IMG/VR virus record: IMGVR_UViG_3300021061_000036
Coordinates: 1 to 38,687 of that record
Direction: 5' to 3' (one strand)
From: a virus
Length of the DNA stretch: 38,687 nt
In this document: positions 22,297-38,163 of the stretch, in pieces
Numbering within the stretch: the stretch's first letter is position 1
How the letters are laid out: the number at the start of each line of letters is the position of its first letter
Made by a program: the position numbers and the translations under genes
Notes under the pieces: model-generated
Seen by the model: only the letters and a program-made list of their open reading frames with translations
The model's database searches: none
Told to the model about the DNA's origin: nothing

Positions 22297-22692
22297 CTAG
22301 TCGGGCTTCGCCCCGAGCCCTTCGGTCTCGGCCATTCGGCGACTATCCCTATCGCGGTTCGCTACATCATGGCTGAGCGAGTGGTAGATGATACCCGCCA
22401 GCGCGTACTCGTCCCATGCGCAGTTGACGGGCGACACGTTGAGGCAACCACATAGCAGCTCTGTTTGCTCCCGGTCGCTCATGAGCGCCATCCGTTCTTC
22501 AACGACGTCGAGCAAAACGCGAAGTAGCCTGCGCTCGTTCTTGGGAAGCCATCGAGGCTTGCCATCGTAACGTTCAGGCTCGAAGCGCGAGGGATCGAAG
22601 CGGGAACCGCCAAGACCCGCAGGGGCTTGGTCCGAAGGACGAGAGCCCGGTGCCCCTGGCACGCGCCCAGAAACATCGTCTATCGCGTCCAT
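22297..22692 (-). CDS. hypothetical protein with repeat-element tail
   Basis: 131 residues from ATG 22692; GAGGGAG lies eight bases upstream, favouring this start over GTG 22701. The N-terminal 40 residues are Gly/Pro/Arg-rich and probably disordered. The middle is helical (NERRLLRVLLDVVEERMALM, REQTELLCGC, WDEYALAGIIYHSLSHDVA). The C-terminal RRMAETEGLGAKPD is encoded by a copy of a palindromic element also found at the ends of two other minus-strand genes. Function unknown. Confidence 0.68.
   Translation of the reverse strand: MDAIDDVSGRVPGAPGSRPSDQAPAGLGGSRFDPSRFEPERYDGKPRWLPKNERRLLRVLLDVVEERMALMSDREQTELLCGCLNVSPVNCAWDEYALAGIIYHSLSHDVANRDRDSRRMAETEGLGAKPD
22301..22345 (-). repeat. palindromic element, copy A
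   Basis: It shares GGCTTCGCCCCGAGCC and, after a short variable part, GTCTCGGCCATTCGG with copy B (27141-27214), in the same strand and reading frame. It encodes the last dozen residues of the overlapping gene. GGGCT and AGCCC can pair. It lacks the first hairpin found in copies B and C. Confidence 0.7.
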
Positions 22693-22695
22693 TCT

Positions 22696-22914
22696 ATGCA
22701 CTCCCTCTCATACCTAGACTCTCTTATTCCTCTATCTAAAGAGGATAAGGTACAGACCCCTGAGCTACGTGAGGCCTTGAAGAGCCTCTTACCCCACGTA
22801 ACCAACAGAGCCTTCCTGGATAACTTCTGGGACGCAGCAGGAGCGAGCTGCGCGGTCGGGCGCTCACAGGGGATGCGAGCCGCTATAAATGGAATTCGGC
22901 GGCACCTGAAATAG
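22696..22914 (+). CDS. possible small plus-strand gene between minus-strand genes
   Basis: 72 codons from ATG 22696. The product looks like a compact helical protein: TPELREALKSLLPHVTNRAF, LDNFWDAAGASCAVGRSQGM and INGIRRHLK. The opposite strand also has an open frame here (22680-22949) that would overlap the methyltransferase stop by ATGA, but its product is a basic, irregular sequence. I prefer the plus-strand reading from amino-acid pattern alone; no good ribosome-binding site is seen. The choice is uncertain. Confidence 0.45.
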   Translation: MHSLSYLDSLIPLSKEDKVQTPELREALKSLLPHVTNRAFLDNFWDAAGASCAVGRSQGMRAAINGIRRHLK

Positions 22915-22945: not shown

Positions 22946-24106
22946 TCATGCTGCCTCCGCTCGCGTCTGGAGCGCTTCCACGGCGGCGATACGCTGGCCT
23001 ATCCACCTCACCACCGGCACAGCCATGCTGTTGCCGAGCATCTTGTAGCGAGGCCCGTCAGCCATGAGCTTGCCGCGATAGGGGACTAGGGTGAAGTCCG
23101 GCGGAAACCCTTGAAGGCGTTCGCACTCACGGGGGGTAAGGCGACGAACGGCTGACGCAGTCGCAATGCCGTTGTGCCGGCGACTTCCCATGTTAGCGTC
23201 TAGCGTGGCGTGGGTTTCAACCTCGCGAACACCACTCTGCGAGCTTTGGAAGGCAACGTAGTTCTGCTGCTGCGCGCCAGCATCCGCTGCTATCGCGCCG
23301 ACGATCTGCCCATCCCCCCCAATCTGCCGCACCTCGGATCGACTATTCTGGGTGAAGGCGAGCACAGTGCTGTTCGGGTCGGTGTTCGTGTCCAGAGCGC
23401 CTGTGATTTCCCCTGTTTCCCAAGCCCCGCAGTTGCCGCTCGTTTGAAAGGCTGTGGCGACTAAGCCGCCATCGCAGTCGAAGTCGGTTCCGAGGCCACC
23501 GCCTGCAGAGCGGCGGCTAGGGATGGTGGGAGCTGCTTGCCCCTTTTCTCGGCGCGGCGCAGGATGCCCTTGCAAGCTGTGGCGCTCAAATAATACCGCT
23601 GCGGCACGTCGCCAGTCTCCAAGATGTCCGACAAGGAAGACGCGGCGGCGGCGCTGTGGAACTCCAAAGTGCTGAGCGTCAAGAACTCGGTAGGCGAACC
23701 CATACCCGAGTTCGACCAGGCCCCCGAGTATGGAACCAAAGTCCCTTCCTCCGTTCGACGACAGGACGCCGGGGACGTTCTCCCAAACCAGCCATCTGGC
23801 CCGCGTCCGGTCAGCAAGCCTAAGAAACTCGAGCGCCAGGTTGCCACGGTCGTCATCCAAGCCTCCTCGGAGGCCTGCAACGCTGAAGGATTGGCAGGGG
23901 GTGCCTCCGACAAGAAGGTCAATTGGCCCATATTCGTCGCCTTGAATGGTGGTGAAGTCGCCGTGCAGCGGGACGTGCGGATAGTGGTGAGCGAGAACGG
24001 CTCGCGGCGCTGCATCGATTTCCGAGAAGAACGCGGGCTCAAAGCCCAAGCCATGCCAGCCCATCGTTATGGCTTCGATGCCGGCGCAGACGGAGCCGTA
24101 TTTCAC
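22946..24106 (-). CDS. DNA (cytosine-5-)-methyltransferase, orphan
   Basis: 386 residues from GTG 24106, with GGAG seven bases upstream. The C5-methyltransferase motifs are in order: YGSVCAGIEAITMGWHGLGF (I, SAM binding), GGTPCQSFSVAG (IV, with the catalytic PCQ Cys), WENVPGVLSSNGG (VI, ENV), FGVPQRRRRVFLVG (VIII), then a variable target-recognition region of about 140 residues. RRLTPRECERLQGFP (IX) and YKMLGNSMAVPVV (X) follow. No restriction enzyme gene is adjacent, so it probably protects phage DNA from host restriction or marks it. It lies immediately beside attP, a usual place for late-acquired genes. Confidence 0.93.
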   Translation of the reverse strand: MKYGSVCAGIEAITMGWHGLGFEPAFFSEIDAAPRAVLAHHYPHVPLHGDFTTIQGDEYGPIDLLVGGTPCQSFSVAGLRGGLDDDRGNLALEFLRLADRTRARWLVWENVPGVLSSNGGRDFGSILGGLVELGYGFAYRVLDAQHFGVPQRRRRVFLVGHLGDWRRAAAVLFERHSLQGHPAPRREKGQAAPTIPSRRSAGGGLGTDFDCDGGLVATAFQTSGNCGAWETGEITGALDTNTDPNSTVLAFTQNSRSEVRQIGGDGQIVGAIAADAGAQQQNYVAFQSSQSGVREVETHATLDANMGSRRHNGIATASAVRRLTPRECERLQGFPPDFTLVPYRGKLMADGPRYKMLGNSMAVPVVRWIGQRIAAVEALQTRAEAA

Positions 24107-24125
24107 GCGAACGCTCCACGAACAT

Positions 24126-24166
24126 CGTGTGCCCGAAATTGTGACTCTCGTGTGCCGCCGTGTGCC
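24126..24166 (+). other. attP arm: CGTGTGCC repeats (left cluster)
   Basis: CGTGTGCC occurs at 24126-24133, 24149-24156 and 24159-24166. The first is followed after four bases by ATTGTGAC (24138-24145), exactly as in the right arm copy. Such clustered direct repeats beside a recombination core are expected for integrase arm-type sites; binding is inferred. Confidence 0.55.
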
Positions 24167-24233
24167 CGATGGCTCCGCTTTGTTCCGGATTGCCGAAACG
24201 GCCCAATCGCTGTAACCCGCAGAAATCCTAGGA

Positions 24234-24274
24234 GACCCCGTAGCTCAGCAGGATAGAGCATCAGATTCCTAATC
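24234..24274 (+). other. attP core: 5' half of a tRNA-Arg(CCT) gene
   Basis: The 41 bases read as the first half of a tRNA. They comprise acceptor strand GACCCCG, TA, D-stem GCTC, loop AGCAGGATA, D-stem GAGC, A, anticodon stem TCAGA, loop TTCCTAA with anticodon CCT, and TC. After that the sequence no longer matches a tRNA and no T-arm or acceptor 3' strand follows. Half a tRNA beside a tyrosine integrase is the standard sign of an attachment site, here probably crossing over at the anticodon loop. The stop codon of the minus-strand XRE gene lies inside it. Confidence 0.75.
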
Positions 24275-24499
24275 ATCTGCTTTTTCCCTTGATTCTGCGC
24301 TTTTTGCGCGTCGTGTGCCACGGATTGTGACTAAAAGCAGTTCGATGGCCACAGAAGCAGGGCCGCTGACAGGCGTTTCGCCTTGTTCCCAACGGCGCAC
24401 CTGACGCTCGCCATTCGGCCCCATACGGAGGCGCGCAGCAAGCTCAGCTTGTGAAAGACCAAGCCTCTGACGCGCTTCCCTGACTTCGGTAGGGGTCAT
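24269..24499 (-). CDS. XRE-type helix-turn-helix regulator
   Basis: 76 residues; ATG 24499 overlaps the upstream stop. EVREARQRLGLSQAELAARL is a typical first half of an XRE/Cro helix-turn-helix, followed by RQVRRWEQGETPVSGPASVA. This is the variant in which the recognition helix is short and ends in W-x-x-G. It is the last gene of the leftward operon, and its stop lies in the attP core, so integration changes what lies beyond its 3' end. It may control integrase or the adjacent methyltransferase. Confidence 0.82.
   Translation of the reverse strand: MTPTEVREARQRLGLSQAELAARLRMGPNGERQVRRWEQGETPVSGPASVAIELLLVTIRGTRRAKSAESREKADD
24312..24331 (+). other. attP arm: right copy of the 20-bp repeat
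   Basis: CGTGTGCC, four bases, ATTGTGAC: the same 20-base plan as 24126-24145 with 16 fixed positions identical, in the same orientation, on the other side of the tRNA half. Probable arm-type integrase binding site. Confidence 0.55.
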
Positions 24500-24729
24500 T
24501 TGCTAATTGGCTCAACGATCACGCTGATGACGCGCACGGTCTCACCAGTCTCGCGGTCGATCAGATCTTTCCCAATCTTGCGACGCTCGCCGATGGCGTG
24601 CATTTCAGCTGTCTGTTCGCTGCGGGTCTGATGAGTGCGAACCTTGCCGCAGGCATAGCTTGTGATGACCTGATGGGTCTTCGGCGCTGCAAGAGCGGAG
24701 TTGATAAGGTCCATCGCGTTCATCTTCAT
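24496..24729 (-). CDS. hypothetical protein between integrase and XRE regulator
   Basis: 77 residues from ATG 24729, GGGAGA upstream. It is basic and probably mixed alpha/beta: MDLINSALAAPKTHQVITSY, then KVRTHQTRSEQTAEMHAIGE and a C-terminal strand ETGETVRVISVIVEPIS. It starts 18 bases after the integrase stop and overlaps the XRE gene by four bases. No family recognised. Confidence 0.68.
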   Translation of the reverse strand: MKMNAMDLINSALAAPKTHQVITSYACGKVRTHQTRSEQTAEMHAIGERRKIGKDLIDRETGETVRVISVIVEPISK

Positions 24730-24747
24730 TCTCCCGTGTCCGGTGGG

Positions 24748-25782
24748 TCACTGACCCGATGCACTCTTGTCGGACATTTTGTCCGGTTTGTCAAGCGTCA
24801 AAGTTGTCGAAACGCGGTCAAATGCGGTCACGGCCTCGTCAGGTTTGATGTGCGCGTACCGCATCGTCATGCTGATGCTGGAGTGCCCCAGAGCCTCACA
24901 GACATCAGCAATATCAGCGCCCGCCTGACGCGCCCATGATGCGAAGGTGTGACGCAGGTCGTGAAACTTGAAGTTCTCGATCTCCGCAGTCTCAAGCGCC
25001 TTTTCCCAACGCTTCCTGAAATTGGTGGTGTCGAACACCTTGCCCCTGCGCTTGTCAGCTGGCGTGGTGGATAGCATCGCCATCAGTACGGGCGTAATCC
25101 GCACGGTGTGCTCCTTGCCGCCCTTAATGCCGAGCAGGATCAACTTGCGGTCGAGCTTGATTTGCTTCCAGTCTAGATTGAGCACGTTGGCCTTGCGAAG
25201 CCCCGTCAGCACCGCGCAGAGCATAATAGGCACCAAGCGAGGTTCGGCCGCCTTCAGCGCCTCCCATTCCTCGATCGACAGGAACCTCTTTCGCCATGCG
25301 GCCTCCTTCGCTTTCAGCTTCTTCCAGGGGATCGCCGGTAGCGGCTGGGCGTGAAGCTCATGGCAATGCTCCAGAGCCGCCCGCAGCATGGCAAAGTCCC
25401 TGTTGACAGTCCGCTCTTCAATCTTCCGGCCTGGCGGTGGAGATGCGCGGCGTTTTGCGCGGTAGTCGATAAGCTTGTTCGCAGTGAGCTCGGTGACGGG
25501 AGTGTCGGCGCCGATGATGTCGGACAGGCATTCGAACTGCTTGAACACCGTACGCCACCCTCTCTGGTGCTTCCCTTTTGCTTCCCAGTAGGTTCCGAGG
25601 ATCTGGCGCAATGGCCAGACGGGCACCTGCTTGAAAGATTGCCGCGCCTTATGCTTTTCGTCTTCCTCGACTAGCTTGGCTTTTGAGAGCGTAGTCTCGC
25701 CCGTGCTGCCTCGAAATCGCTGACCGTTGATGGTGAAGCTGTACCAGAGGTACGGCGAGCCCTTCCGCGGCTTGCATGACAT
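24748..25782 (-). CDS. int: tyrosine-type phage integrase
   Basis: 344 residues. The N-terminal arm-binding part (KGSPYLWYSFTINGQRFRGS) is followed by a core-binding SAM-like domain (about 80-150) and the catalytic domain. Visible catalytic features are the first Arg in LTGLRKANVLNLDW, a Lys-containing beta turn around GGKEHTV, HDLRHTFASW with the His-x-x-Arg pair, LGHSSISMTMRYAH with the conserved His, and the nucleophile Tyr. It would integrate the phage at the adjacent attP with a host tRNA-Arg. The start overlaps the excisionase-like gene by 112 bases, a long overlap for this operon. Confidence 0.95.
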   Translation of the reverse strand: MSCKPRKGSPYLWYSFTINGQRFRGSTGETTLSKAKLVEEDEKHKARQSFKQVPVWPLRQILGTYWEAKGKHQRGWRTVFKQFECLSDIIGADTPVTELTANKLIDYRAKRRASPPPGRKIEERTVNRDFAMLRAALEHCHELHAQPLPAIPWKKLKAKEAAWRKRFLSIEEWEALKAAEPRLVPIMLCAVLTGLRKANVLNLDWKQIKLDRKLILLGIKGGKEHTVRITPVLMAMLSTTPADKRRGKVFDTTNFRKRWEKALETAEIENFKFHDLRHTFASWARQAGADIADVCEALGHSSISMTMRYAHIKPDEAVTAFDRVSTTLTLDKPDKMSDKSASGQ

Positions 25783-25958
25783 TGACGAGCGCCTTCTACG
25801 AACGAGTTGAGGTCATCGGGCGTGTACCTAACACAGCGCCCGTATTGGATGTAAGGAAGGTGCCCCGCCTGCCGTGCTTTGCGGAGGGTGCGGGTGCATA
25901 GCCCCAGCTTCTCTGCTGCTTGGGCCTCGGTCAGAAGGGTAACAACCTCACGCGCCAT
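25671..25958 (-). CDS. excisionase-like helix-turn-helix protein
   Basis: 95 residues from ATG 25958 (a longer frame to 26087 is open but runs through a repeat element and is unlikely). VVTLLTEAQAAEKLGLCTRT, then LRKARQAGHLPYIQYG and RCVRYTPDDLNSFVEG, matches the HTH_17/excisionase (MerR-like winged helix) family. Its basic tail overlaps the integrase start. Position directly upstream of int supports a directionality factor. A palindrome lies 33-63 bases upstream. Confidence 0.85.
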   Translation of the reverse strand: MAREVVTLLTEAQAAEKLGLCTRTLRKARQAGHLPYIQYGRCVRYTPDDLNSFVEGARQCHASRGRARRTSGTASPSTVSDFEAARARLRSQKPS

Positions 25959-25990
25959 GGGACGAGCGCCTTCGGTCAAGACGCTGCCTA

Positions 25991-26021
25991 GCATCCATGT
26001 TAGCACGCTTAGCATGGATGC
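25991..26021. promoter_or_regulatory. inverted repeat upstream of the excisionase gene
   Basis: GCATCCATG (25991-25999) is the exact complement of CATGGATGC (26013-26021); between them TTAGC occurs twice as a direct repeat. It could be an operator or an RNA hairpin for the excisionase/integrase pair. Confidence 0.5.
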
Positions 26022-26029
26022 TTGCCTTG

Positions 26030-26085
26030 GCAGCGGCTTGAGGGCGAAGCCCCGCCGGCCCGGTGCTGCGAAGCAGCAGGCGCAC
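26030..26085 (+). repeat. palindromic element, copy D (inverted, intergenic)
   Basis: Read on the minus strand it contains GCGCCT-x-CTGCTTCGCAG-x-ACCG, matching the first hairpin region of copy C, then GGCTTCGCC and AAGCCGCT as in the second part. TGCTGC and GCAGCA pair around GAA; GGGC and GCCC pair around GAA. Its orientation is opposite to copies A-C and it lies outside a convincing gene. Confidence 0.6.
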
Positions 26086-26096
26086 ATCTTCTTTCC

Positions 26097-30309: not shown

Positions 30310-30510
30310 TCATGACTGGGCGCCTCCTGCTTCGCAGGACCGCGTGCTATTCGCTTCGCTCACCGAGCCGCTTTGCGTCTCGTCCCTATCGGGTGACGCC
30401 CGCATGGCGCGGTCTCGCCCATCAAGAAGACAGGGTGCGCAGAAATACCCTAGAGTGCGGCAATGGAGAGCAGCTGAATACTCGCCACAAGACCAGCATG
30501 GCCTCATCAT
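30310..30510 (-). CDS. zinc-finger-like small protein with repeat-element tail
   Basis: 66 residues from ATG 30510, which overlaps the PAPS-reductase-like stop. RPCWSCGEYSAALHCRTLGY and FCAPCLLDGRDRAMR give two Cys-x-x-Cys pairs with an intervening Cys. The last about 25 residues, through ETQSGSVSEANSTRSCEAGG, are encoded by palindromic element C and are Ser/Gly/Glu-rich. A folded body of about 40 residues plus this tail is unusual. Function unknown. Confidence 0.65.
   Translation of the reverse strand: MMRPCWSCGEYSAALHCRTLGYFCAPCLLDGRDRAMRASPDRDETQSGSVSEANSTRSCEAGGAQS
30318..30397 (-). repeat. palindromic element, copy C
   Basis: The plus strand has GGGCGCCTCC, hairpin TCCTGC-TTC-GCAGGA, ACCGCG, a CGCTTCGCT part, CCGAGCCG, GTCTCG and ATCGGGTGA. 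It aligns with copy B along its whole length. The first hairpin is longer than in B and differs on both arms while still pairing. It encodes the tail of the overlapping minus-strand gene. Confidence 0.72.
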
Positions 30511-31367
30511 GCTGCTTCTCCGGCGCACCAGAGGCCGCATTCAGCGTCGAACTCGTCATCGTCTCCGACCTCGAGCGGGAGCAGGGGAGACAAGGCCACA
30601 TCTTGCACTAGGTCGCTGATGCTACGCTCGGTGACGAACCGCCCCTTGCCGATCGTCTTTTCCATCCGGTCCCACCAGACAGCACTCGCGGGATTATCCC
30701 GGATGATGCGCTTCAGAATACGCTCACCCTTCAAGAAGCAGAGGTCGCAGTTGCCCTCCCATCCCTTGATGCCAAGGTCGAAGGACTGTGCTGCCCAGAA
30801 AGCGAGCACATCATTTCTCCGAACCATAGTCGCTAGGCGGGCCATCGGCATGATGGTAGTCCAAGGGAACTCACCGCTCTCGTTTTTCGCTACCTGAGTC
30901 AGAACACGCCGCTGTTCATCCCAGCGGAGGCCGATGACGTTGTTCCATGCGACGTAACCTTGCGCTTCCATGAAGTCGGCACACACTTGCATCTTCAGAT
31001 GCTCGGTGCAGAAACGCATCGCCTGGTTAGGGGTGAACTTCTTGCTCTCGATTAGAGCCTCGAACGGCTCACCGTTACGCGCTGCGCTGTTGTAGCCGAC
31101 CTCTTCGAACCGCTCCGCAACTGGTGTCCGCTTCAGCCGGGAGCGCCACTCCAGCCACCGCACCCGCACGTTCCACTGGGTCGCGCAATCGTGCACGAAG
31201 CGAAGCGTCTCTTCTCGCTCCTTGCCCGTGTTCGCGAAGCAGACATGCACGTCATCGGGCAGCTTGCCGTCATAGGCATCTAGGATATGCCAGAGCATGT
31301 AGCCGCTGGTTCGGCCGCCGCTGAAGCTAATGAGCGCTGGACCGTCTATGCGATAGGGGTTGGTCAC
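30507..31367 (-). CDS. PAPS-reductase-like (PP-loop) phage protein
   Basis: 286 residues from GTG 31367 (GTGA with the previous stop). ALISFSGGRTSGYMLWHILD holds the SGGxTS PP-loop for ATP or adenylyl substrate binding. DDVHVCFANTGKEREETLRF, a Cys-containing segment AMRFCTEHLKMQVCADFM and GNCDLCFLKGERILKRIIRD are typical of phage members of the phosphoadenosine-phosphosulfate reductase/DndC superfamily. Substrate is unknown; such genes are common beside phage recombination genes. No phosphorothioation partners are nearby. Confidence 0.88.
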   Translation of the reverse strand: MTNPYRIDGPALISFSGGRTSGYMLWHILDAYDGKLPDDVHVCFANTGKEREETLRFVHDCATQWNVRVRWLEWRSRLKRTPVAERFEEVGYNSAARNGEPFEALIESKKFTPNQAMRFCTEHLKMQVCADFMEAQGYVAWNNVIGLRWDEQRRVLTQVAKNESGEFPWTTIMPMARLATMVRRNDVLAFWAAQSFDLGIKGWEGNCDLCFLKGERILKRIIRDNPASAVWWDRMEKTIGKGRFVTERSISDLVQDVALSPLLPLEVGDDDEFDAECGLWCAGEAA

Positions 31368-36472: not shown

Positions 36473-36660
36473 GCAGTCGTTTCATCTTGGCTTATGACCC
36501 GGATGCCGATGGGGACAAGTGGTTCCTCTTCGACCGGACAAGCGCATTGGAAACCGCGTCCGACTGGTGCGGCGTCGATCGCGCTCGCAAGTCAATGTCT
36601 GCCAATGAGTCCAACACCGAAAGCGCTCCCGCTTGGACGCCCAAGAGCGGGGGCTACTGA
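36469..36660 (+). CDS. small hypothetical protein
   Basis: 63 residues; ATGA overlap with the upstream gene. SSRFILAYDPDADGDKWFLF, then DRTSALETASDWCGVDR, suggests a small alpha/beta unit with a disordered Ser/Glu/Lys-rich end. The stop overlaps the methyltransferase start (TGATG). No family recognised. Confidence 0.7.
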   Translation: MSSRFILAYDPDADGDKWFLFDRTSALETASDWCGVDRARKSMSANESNTESAPAWTPKSGGY

Positions 36661-37364
36661 TGCGCGTCGAAACCATCGGGCCCGCTACCCTTTACCTTGC
36701 GGATTGCCGGGAGGTTCTGCCGACGCTTGAAGGCATTCATGCGCTCATCACGGACCCGCCTTACGGCGTGGACTTCAAGGGTAAGGCGACTAAGCACACC
36801 ATCAACCGCCCTGAGCTAGTCTACGAGGACGGAGAGACAGAGTTTCGGTCCGGTGTGTTGCCTGCGTTCAAGATGGCGCTGGAGCGCGTTGAACGCTGCC
36901 TAGTATTCACGGGCACTCGAAGGCTGCATGAGTATCCACAGCCTGACGACATCGGCGGTATAGTGTGCCCCAACGGCGGCGGACGCAGCGCATGGGGTTT
37001 CGGCTGTTATCACCCCGCGCTCTATTACGGACGCTCGCCACATATCGCCAAGGGGATGGGCGCAAGGCCTACCGCTAAGGTCATCTACCATCCTGGGATG
37101 CATGTTACCGGCGAAGCAGTGGGGAACGACCACCCCTGTCCTAAGCCGATCGCGTTCATGAATTGGGCCGTCGACCTGGCGTCATTCCCGGGCGAAACAG
37201 TTCTAGATCCCTTCATGGGCTCTGGCACGACTGGCGTGTCTGCTGTCCAGCTTGGCCGCAACTTTGTCGGCATCGAGCGTGAGCCGCGGTTCTTCGACAT
37301 CGCTTGCCAGCGCATCGAAGACGCTCAACGCCAAGGGGATATGTTCCGCGAGGTGGCGGCATGA
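36660..37364 (+). CDS. DPPY-type DNA methyltransferase (probably N6-adenine)
   Basis: 234 residues from ATG 36660. ALITDPPYGVDFKGKA is motif IV (DPPY) near the N-terminus, and DPFMGSGTTGVSAVQLGRNF followed by VGIERE is motif I near the C-terminus. This is the motif order of beta-class methyltransferases, many of which modify adenine N6. The protein is short and no separate target-recognition domain is obvious beyond the central 100 residues. No restriction partner is adjacent. It would mark phage DNA or affect its replication or transcription. Confidence 0.9.
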   Translation: MRVETIGPATLYLADCREVLPTLEGIHALITDPPYGVDFKGKATKHTINRPELVYEDGETEFRSGVLPAFKMALERVERCLVFTGTRRLHEYPQPDDIGGIVCPNGGGRSAWGFGCYHPALYYGRSPHIAKGMGARPTAKVIYHPGMHVTGEAVGNDHPCPKPIAFMNWAVDLASFPGETVLDPFMGSGTTGVSAVQLGRNFVGIEREPRFFDIACQRIEDAQRQGDMFREVAA

Positions 37365-37594
37365 CCTTCAAGCCCATCATCGTCACAATCGACGGACAGA
37401 AGGTCTATGGAGAGACGCTTGGCCCTGACAAGCTCCGAGCGCGCTTCGACGTTCTGGACGCGCTCAGCCGCACCCGCGCCCTTACGGATGCGGAGAGCCA
37501 CGAGCTTGAGAAAGTAATCTACGAGCTGGACAGGCGTTCACGAAAGCCCGCTGGTTACGACGCTTGGTTGAAAAGCGGAGGCCGGATCGGATGA
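37361..37594 (+). CDS. small hypothetical protein
   Basis: 77 residues from ATG 37361 (ATGA with the methyltransferase stop). PIIVTIDGQKVYGETLGPDK, LRARFDVLDALSRTRALTDA and ESHELEKVIYELDRRSRKPA suggest a short beta hairpin followed by two helices. Overlaps the next gene by four bases. No family recognised. Confidence 0.72.
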   Translation: MTFKPIIVTIDGQKVYGETLGPDKLRARFDVLDALSRTRALTDAESHELEKVIYELDRRSRKPAGYDAWLKSGGRIG

Positions 37595-38163
37595 GCCTCC
37601 AATGCTCCGACTGTCACGGCCCCATTTCAACGCAGAGCAAGACGGGCCGTTGCCGTCGCTGTGCTGTAAATCACAGCAATGCTGACCCCGCCATTCGCGC
37701 TCGGAAGGCAGAAGCCAACCGCAGGAAGTCCCAAGATCCGGCTTTCGTTCAGCGAGCAGTCCGCCACCTCCAAGCCGGCCAGAAAGCGGCACGAAGCGAC
37801 CCGGAAAGAGCAGCCAAACTGGTCGCAAAGGTTCAGGCCAACTTGGCTTTGGCGTGGAGCGTAGAAGCCAGGCGCAAGTGGTACGCGGGACGCAAGGAAG
37901 CGGCTCGGCGACGTACCGAAACGATGCTTGGGTGGTGCCCGCCGCGCTGGCGCGATGAATATCGCCGCCTCCGGAATTGTTGGGGACGCGGGGCCGCCGA
38001 AGCGCGCAGGATGATTGAGGAGAAGATGGCGATCGAACGGGCGAACATGACGCCTTTCGAGCGCCAGATGGAAGCTCTTCGCAACGGCGCAAGACTTATC
38101 GAGAAGCCACGTTTCAGGTCCAGGGAATACGATTTCACGCTTGGTGGAGTATCCGACCTGTGA
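37591..38163 (+). CDS. zinc-ribbon basic hypothetical protein
   Basis: 190 residues from ATG 37591. The start CSDCHGPISTQSKTGRCRRC is a CxxC...CxxC zinc-ribbon plan. A long Lys/Arg/Ala-rich helix follows (RARKAEANRRKSQDPAFVQR and onward). Then comes MLGWCPPRWRDEYRRLRNCW with AAEARRMIEEK, a pattern common in alphaproteobacterial phage proteins near replication genes. Nucleic-acid binding is likely but not shown. GTGA overlap with rusA. Confidence 0.78.
   Translation: MSLQCSDCHGPISTQSKTGRCRRCAVNHSNADPAIRARKAEANRRKSQDPAFVQRAVRHLQAGQKAARSDPERAAKLVAKVQANLALAWSVEARRKWYAGRKEAARRRTETMLGWCPPRWRDEYRRLRNCWGRGAAEARRMIEEKMAIERANMTPFERQMEALRNGARLIEKPRFRSREYDFTLGGVSDL

Follow-up and report, generated by a model that had tools for sequence, protein, structure and literature searches.

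A probable viral attachment site combining the 5' half of a tRNA-Arg(CCT) gene with a conserved arm-site array and a promoter-like element

The window analyzed in this study comprises all 38,687 bases of an IMG/VR virus record that is classed as linear. Its positions 24126-24331 are read, with a probability of about 0.9, as the attP site of a temperate tailed alphaproteobacterial phage, in which the host tRNA-Arg(CCT) gene is rebuilt from a 5' half carried by the phage and is most likely driven by a promoter-like element in front of that half. The host group is most likely the Sphingomonadales. Most tRNA-targeting phages carry the 3' half of the gene, which leaves the host promoter in charge. 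Here, the left arm of the phage holds both the 5' half and the promoter-like element, so the phage probably supplies both for a gene that its insertion disrupts, expression of the rebuilt gene being judged from the sequence. The host would then depend on phage DNA for a single-copy tRNA whose promoter and front half are replaced.

In the proposed scheme, the integrase probably binds TGTG(A/C)C sites, four in the P arm and two in the P' arm. Recombination would take place between attP and a host tRNA-Arg(CCT) gene at its anticodon region, with the crossover presumably located in the anticodon loop, as suggested by the point at which identity ends and by what is known of comparable sites. Since phage and host share the 5' half as their core, the host copy of that half would stay with its promoter at the integrase end, and a complete tRNA would be rebuilt at the other end from the phage 5' half and the host 3' half. 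Everything in front of the rebuilt gene would then be phage DNA, in which the promoter-like element is the most likely driver of transcription. In a lysogen, the host promoter would drive the displaced 5' half towards the convergent integrase gene. The features on which this scheme is based are listed in Table 1.

Table 1. Features of the putative attachment region and its neighbours in the window.
Feature	Coordinates	Strand	Basis
P-arm putative integrase site 1 (CGTGTGCC)	24126..24133	+	Four-site array with 12-11-10 spacing, 7/7 left arms
P-arm putative integrase site 2 (ATTGTGAC)	24138..24145	+	Array conservation
P-arm putative integrase site 3 (CGTGTGCC)	24149..24156	+	Array conservation
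P-arm putative integrase site 4 (CGTGTGCC)	24159..24166	+	Array conservation
Conserved block CCGCTTTGTTCCG between arm sites and promoter-like element	24175..24187	+	CCGCNNNGTTCCG in 7/7 aligned arms
Promoter-like TTGCCG-N17-TAACCC reading into the tRNA half	24190..24218	+	Conserved in 7/7 left arms
attP core: 41-nt 5' half of tRNA-Arg(CCT), acceptor strand to anticodon stem	24234..24274	+	Matches to intact genes
P'-arm putative integrase site 1 (CGTGTGCC)	24312..24319	+	Two P' sites 12 nt apart, 9/9 arms
P'-arm putative integrase site 2 (ATTGTGAC)	24324..24331	+	Same 9/9 integrase-side arms
Tyrosine integrase, 344 aa	24748..25782	-	PF00589 E 8.8e-27, Int_N, phrog_1 integrase
HTH protein beside the integrase gene, candidate excisionase (role inferred)	25671..26087	-	HTH_17 E 1.5e-10

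The core reads GACCCCGTAGCTCAGC...TTCCTAATC and is exactly the 41-base tRNA-Arg(CCT) 5' half of the original prediction, of an alphaproteobacterial type. No complete tRNA was found in the window by ARAGORN, and no tRNA was found in 23000-26000 by Rfam at E values of up to 1; the RNA fold of a transcript of the half is unremarkable (z -1.39). A 35-nt core of the half matched at least 120 genome loci, nearly all of them alphaproteobacterial by title. Of the loci listed, 119 hold an intact tRNA-Arg(CCT) gene, and the remaining one (L061) has just a half; in every case, the identity to the window breaks off in the anticodon stem, at ...CTAATC, and all 41 nt are identical in six of the 120. A host gene with a matching 5' half, which had been expected among sphingomonads, is present in two of 397 Sphingomonadaceae genomes, where all 41 nt are exact and the tRNA genes are intact and unoccupied. 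Full pairing of the phage acceptor strand with the host 3' strand is seen in just 28 of the 119 tRNA-Arg(CCT) genes listed, which provides a testable host-range rule.

The window integrase was compared with the 397 Sphingomonadaceae genomes, and five genomes were obtained at E values of up to 1e-30, two of them with integrases of 30-36% identity. The integrases of Sphingomonas cavernae (G001), G074 and G372 are 45-53% identical to that of the window (about 47-50% in a second comparison), and in these relatives the predicted sphingomonad prophages joined at the anticodon region were found, with the site at both ends: a 5' half lies beside the integrase gene, and an intact tRNA-Arg lies 38.6 kb away in S. 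cavernae, 40.3 kb away in G074 (with the anticodon TCT) and 5.0 kb away in G372. At the S. cavernae K2R01-6 locus (L061), the tRNA 5' half is followed by ATTGTGACCGTGATTGTGAC and then by an integrase gene that points at the half. The integrase reading frame is intact in the S. cavernae and G074 lysogens. S. cavernae gives 48 tRNA hits above the Rfam cut-off, with the half as the 49th, below the cut-off; exactly one of the 48 is a tRNA-Arg(CCT), namely the rebuilt gene with phage DNA upstream. The window phage would be expected to behave like these relatives.

The direction of the exchange was read from the flanks. The sequence upstream of the displaced half has 28 (S. cavernae) and 25 (G372) matches to sequence upstream of intact tRNA genes among the 119 listed loci, and the same comparison gave 31 matches for L149, four for L147 and none for G074. 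By this homology to the tRNA upstream regions of other species, the DNA upstream of the displaced half is host DNA. Upstream of the rebuilt tRNA in S. cavernae and G372 there is no match among the 119 listed loci, and the host flank downstream of the rebuilt tRNA likewise has no match among them at the same setting. The claim that the phage carries the 5' rather than the 3' half holds: the core in the window is a 5' half, and the relatives have a host-like flank upstream of the displaced half.

Among viral contigs, relatives were found neither by a single-protein integrase search nor by the exact 41-mer; an alignment of four integrases gave eight loci. Two viral records (L142 and L145) have an internal attP as in the window, with arms on both sides. 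In L146, the contig ends 51 nt from the integrase gene and there is no core. Left out of the counts were L143 and L144, which repeat the G074 and S. cavernae junctions, respectively, G087 and G137 (integrases of 30-36% identity, with a tRNA-Met near the integrase gene), and G411 and G529 (profile matches at loci L152 and L151, with no tRNA found). The more distant integrases of L131 and L132 (30-36%) lie near an intact tRNA-Met(CAT), which suggests a different target in that branch.

The integrase residues R196, H274, R277, H300 and Y309, which we take to be the catalytic-type residues of a tyrosine integrase, are invariant in four homologues. The best solved relative is HP1 integrase (1aih, E 3.3e-13), followed by 5c6k, listed as Integrase and presumably the P2 integrase; both belong, like the window integrase, to the tyrosine recombinase family. 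The HTH protein is matched in nine of the ten loci that have an integrase match. Two small reading frames on the minus strand, 24269-24499 and 24496-24729, separate the integrase gene from the P' sites in the window, whereas in the relatives the P' sites are right beside the integrase gene. The first of these frames is a small HTH_3 gene (76 aa) that spans the P'-arm sites and whose stop codon, within the tRNA half, belongs to the anticodon region. In the phage collection, the best integrase match (46%) was to Microcystis phage Mvi-Yong1342-1, which has no tRNA half or paired arm sites beside the integrase gene and was rejected.

The direct repeats at 24126-24145 and 24312-24331 were confirmed, together with the additional copies of CGTGTGCC at 24149 and 24159. 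On the plus strand, CGTGTGCC occurs in the whole window only at 24126, 24149, 24159 and 24312; the looser motif [ACG][ATG]TGTG[AC]C occurs 20 times on both strands, and six of the 20, all on one strand, lie within 24126-24331. Seven left arms were compared, namely those of the window, L142 and L145 and the rebuilt junctions of G001, G074, G372 and G782. In all seven, four sites of the form NNTGTG(A/C/T)C with spacings of 12, 11 and 10 are followed by CCGCNNNGTTCCG and then by the promoter-like element, which first-order shuffles of the arms contain in a mean of only 0.0095 of seven; shared ancestry of the arms, which are otherwise poorly alike, inflates these conservation counts and is not removed by the shuffle control. 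The integrase-side arms have two sites 12 nt apart in 9/9 cases. The strongest evidence against chance is that relatives have this array with identical spacings, and conservation of the TGTG arrays on both sides supports the assignment, made earlier from the repeats and the extra copies, of putative integrase arm sites. In L142 and L145, the motif GCAGAANTCCTAG or a near copy of it also flanks the core, immediately ahead of the tRNA and again in the P' arm. No description of such a sphingomonad attP was found in a non-exhaustive search of titles and abstract openings, and a conserved cassette common to otherwise unrelated sphingomonad phages is new as far as this literature was searched.

The promoter-like element, generalized as TTG[AC]CG-N17-TA.C, is found just upstream of the tRNA in 7/7 left arms and has a single occurrence when both strands of the whole window are counted, and the same two boxes at other spacers from 10 to 25 are found in none of the seven. 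These results support the suggestion that the rebuilt tRNA might use a phage promoter. The alternative that survives best accepts the attP with its 5' half and proposes that TTGCCG-N17-TAACCC is not the tRNA promoter, transcription instead starting from another upstream phage promoter. This is considered unlikely: the element in the window is indeed the weakest of the seven (its -35-like box is TTGCCG, compared with TTGACG in the other six arms), a generic sigma-70 scan found no promoter in 23900-25000, and between 44 and 61 nt separate the start of the element from the tRNA in the different arms, but the 17-nt spacing is exact in every arm, and similar elements (TTG[AC]-17 nt-TA) precede intact host tRNA genes in 22 of 118 upstream regions of the listed loci compared with eight of 2400 random 80-nt windows. 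A further point against this alternative is that the gene to the left of attP (22946-24106) lies on the opposite strand. This gene, which adjoins attP and is transcribed opposite to the tRNA half, encodes a C5-cytosine methyltransferase and has 79.6% nucleotide identity over 573 nt to a gene of Caulobacter phage DMCA; the remainder of the 23000-26000 query has no match to this phage.

The gene layout agrees with the original prediction of an integrase side with early genes and an opposite side with structural and lysis genes. According to PHROGs, the portal, connectors, major tail protein, tape measure and endolysin lie to the left of the attP region, and the integrase, a RecE-like exonuclease, an Erf-like protein, a phosphoadenosine phosphosulfate (PAPS) reductase, a repressor, an HNH protein, a methyltransferase and RusA lie to the right. 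The reductase-like gene (phrog_424) occupies 30507-31367 on the minus strand, among the early genes. No terminase was found with PHROGs among the 28 distinct window reading frames scanned, and the two ends of the window share no exact repeat of 9-200 bases. Starting at window position 2, the contig of G784 (L159) is 100% identical to the window over the 11,623 nt compared, its far end is 100% identical to window positions 22500-22822, and it extends 4,370 nt to the left of the window into TerS, TerL and fused protease-capsid reading frames, names that were read from translations and are supported by TerS/TerL homologues before the portal in relatives. In L161, homologues of three right-end window genes (HNH, 37564-38163 and the methyltransferase 36633-37364) stand just before homologues of TerS, TerL and the portal, which indicates that a single kind of phage joins the two ends of the window through the terminase genes. 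On the basis of this extension and gene order, the window represents a single phage genome that measures at least 43 kb and is opened close to the terminase genes; its att site is internal. The internal position supports the earlier view that the molecule is not integrated; its form would be a circle, linear virion DNA or a concatemer.

The same two loci largely answer the objection, raised with the prediction, that the tRNA half is the junction of two tandem prophages sharing a tRNA gene, the left part and the integrase part then belonging to different phages. The middle of such a tandem would show the same gene order, the window lacks a terminase and is not closed, and integrase modules clearly move between unrelated phages, since few window genes beyond the integrase gene and its HTH neighbour match the relatives. 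However, the left part runs on directly into TerS in G784, homologues of the right-end genes are linked to those of TerS, TerL and the portal in L161, and the window holds one set each of late and early genes, so that the tandem arrangement is regarded as very improbable. Least credible of all, and hardly to be entertained, is that the phage once picked up a host tRNA whose decayed remainder, the half, has lost its use in attachment: neither the viral contigs nor the two Sphingomonadaceae genomes with the 41-mer yielded a lysogen of this exact phage, but all 41 nt are intact and end where the relatives recombine, the arm arrays and promoter-like element are conserved around the core, and the integrase retains its catalytic-type residues.

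With attP and a phage-driven rebuilt gene as the preferred reading, a further and rather doubtful proposal is that the only tRNA-Arg(CCT) of the lysogen, which reads AGG, comes under phage control. As the putative promoter lies between the arm sites and the crossover, binding of the integrase or excisionase at attR could lower or raise the tRNA during induction. If this were true, the prophage would set the tRNA supply of its host, beyond merely restoring it, and loss of the element without precise excision would remove the tRNA.

The 5'-half arrangement is already known, as a minority one, from several precedents. Table 1 of Islander counts 159 islands with a 5' fragment and 3760 with a 3' fragment, of 3919 (PMC4383910), and Zhao and Williams (2002) are cited for 5'-distal recombination (PMC6563490). 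The 5' islands, as that table presents them, carry the 5' part of the tRNA gene and displace that of the host, as in the window phage; in contrast to those islands as tabulated, the present case is a phage family with one attP cassette, a conserved arm array and a promoter-like element. For archaeal pTN3-like integrases, attB is the tRNA 5' half and the rebuilt tRNA is expressed from a promoter on the element side, a situation seldom met in bacteria according to the relevant part of the review (PMC8371274). In the archaeal case as outlined there, integration splits the integrase gene, and the promoter of that gene serves the tRNA. The window integrase gene, by contrast, is intact, lies outside the core and faces the tRNA half from the opposite side, with the promoter-like element being distinct from it. 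In the tRNA-dependent lysogeny of phage Fionnbharth, the phage provides the tRNA function, with a promoter, for a disrupted host gene (Guerrero-Bustamante and Hatfull, 2024; PMC10865867). In that account, a separate full tRNA is carried and the host gene is not rebuilt; here, the gene is rebuilt at the junction in the relatives, and there is no complete tRNA in the window, which lacks at least 4.4 kb of the genome. The contribution of the present analysis is the conserved phage cassette, the candidate dedicated promoter and the documented single-copy tRNA case, and the system opens direct questions about the evolution of such an attachment site and the limits on its host range.

The layout with a 5' half only is not universal, since two elements have a complete tRNA at the integrase side. 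In G782 (L158 and L157), both junctions are present in the record, each with a complete tRNA-Arg(CCT), so that this lysogen has two tRNA-Arg(CCT) genes, both chimeric. The displaced host 5' strand reads GCACCCA (A3) and the rebuilt one reads GCGCCCA (G3), which indicates that the rebuilt 5' half came from the phage. In the rebuilt tRNA, the phage 5' strand pairs with the host 3' strand through one G-U, and at the other junction of the element the acceptor stem has an A-C mismatch. L149 similarly has a complete tRNA, not a half, beside the integrase gene. The G782 and L149 elements appear to carry 3' sequence as well and to represent a variant of the scheme. A related element, L155 (G783), has a complete tRNA-Arg(CCT) at its integrase end.
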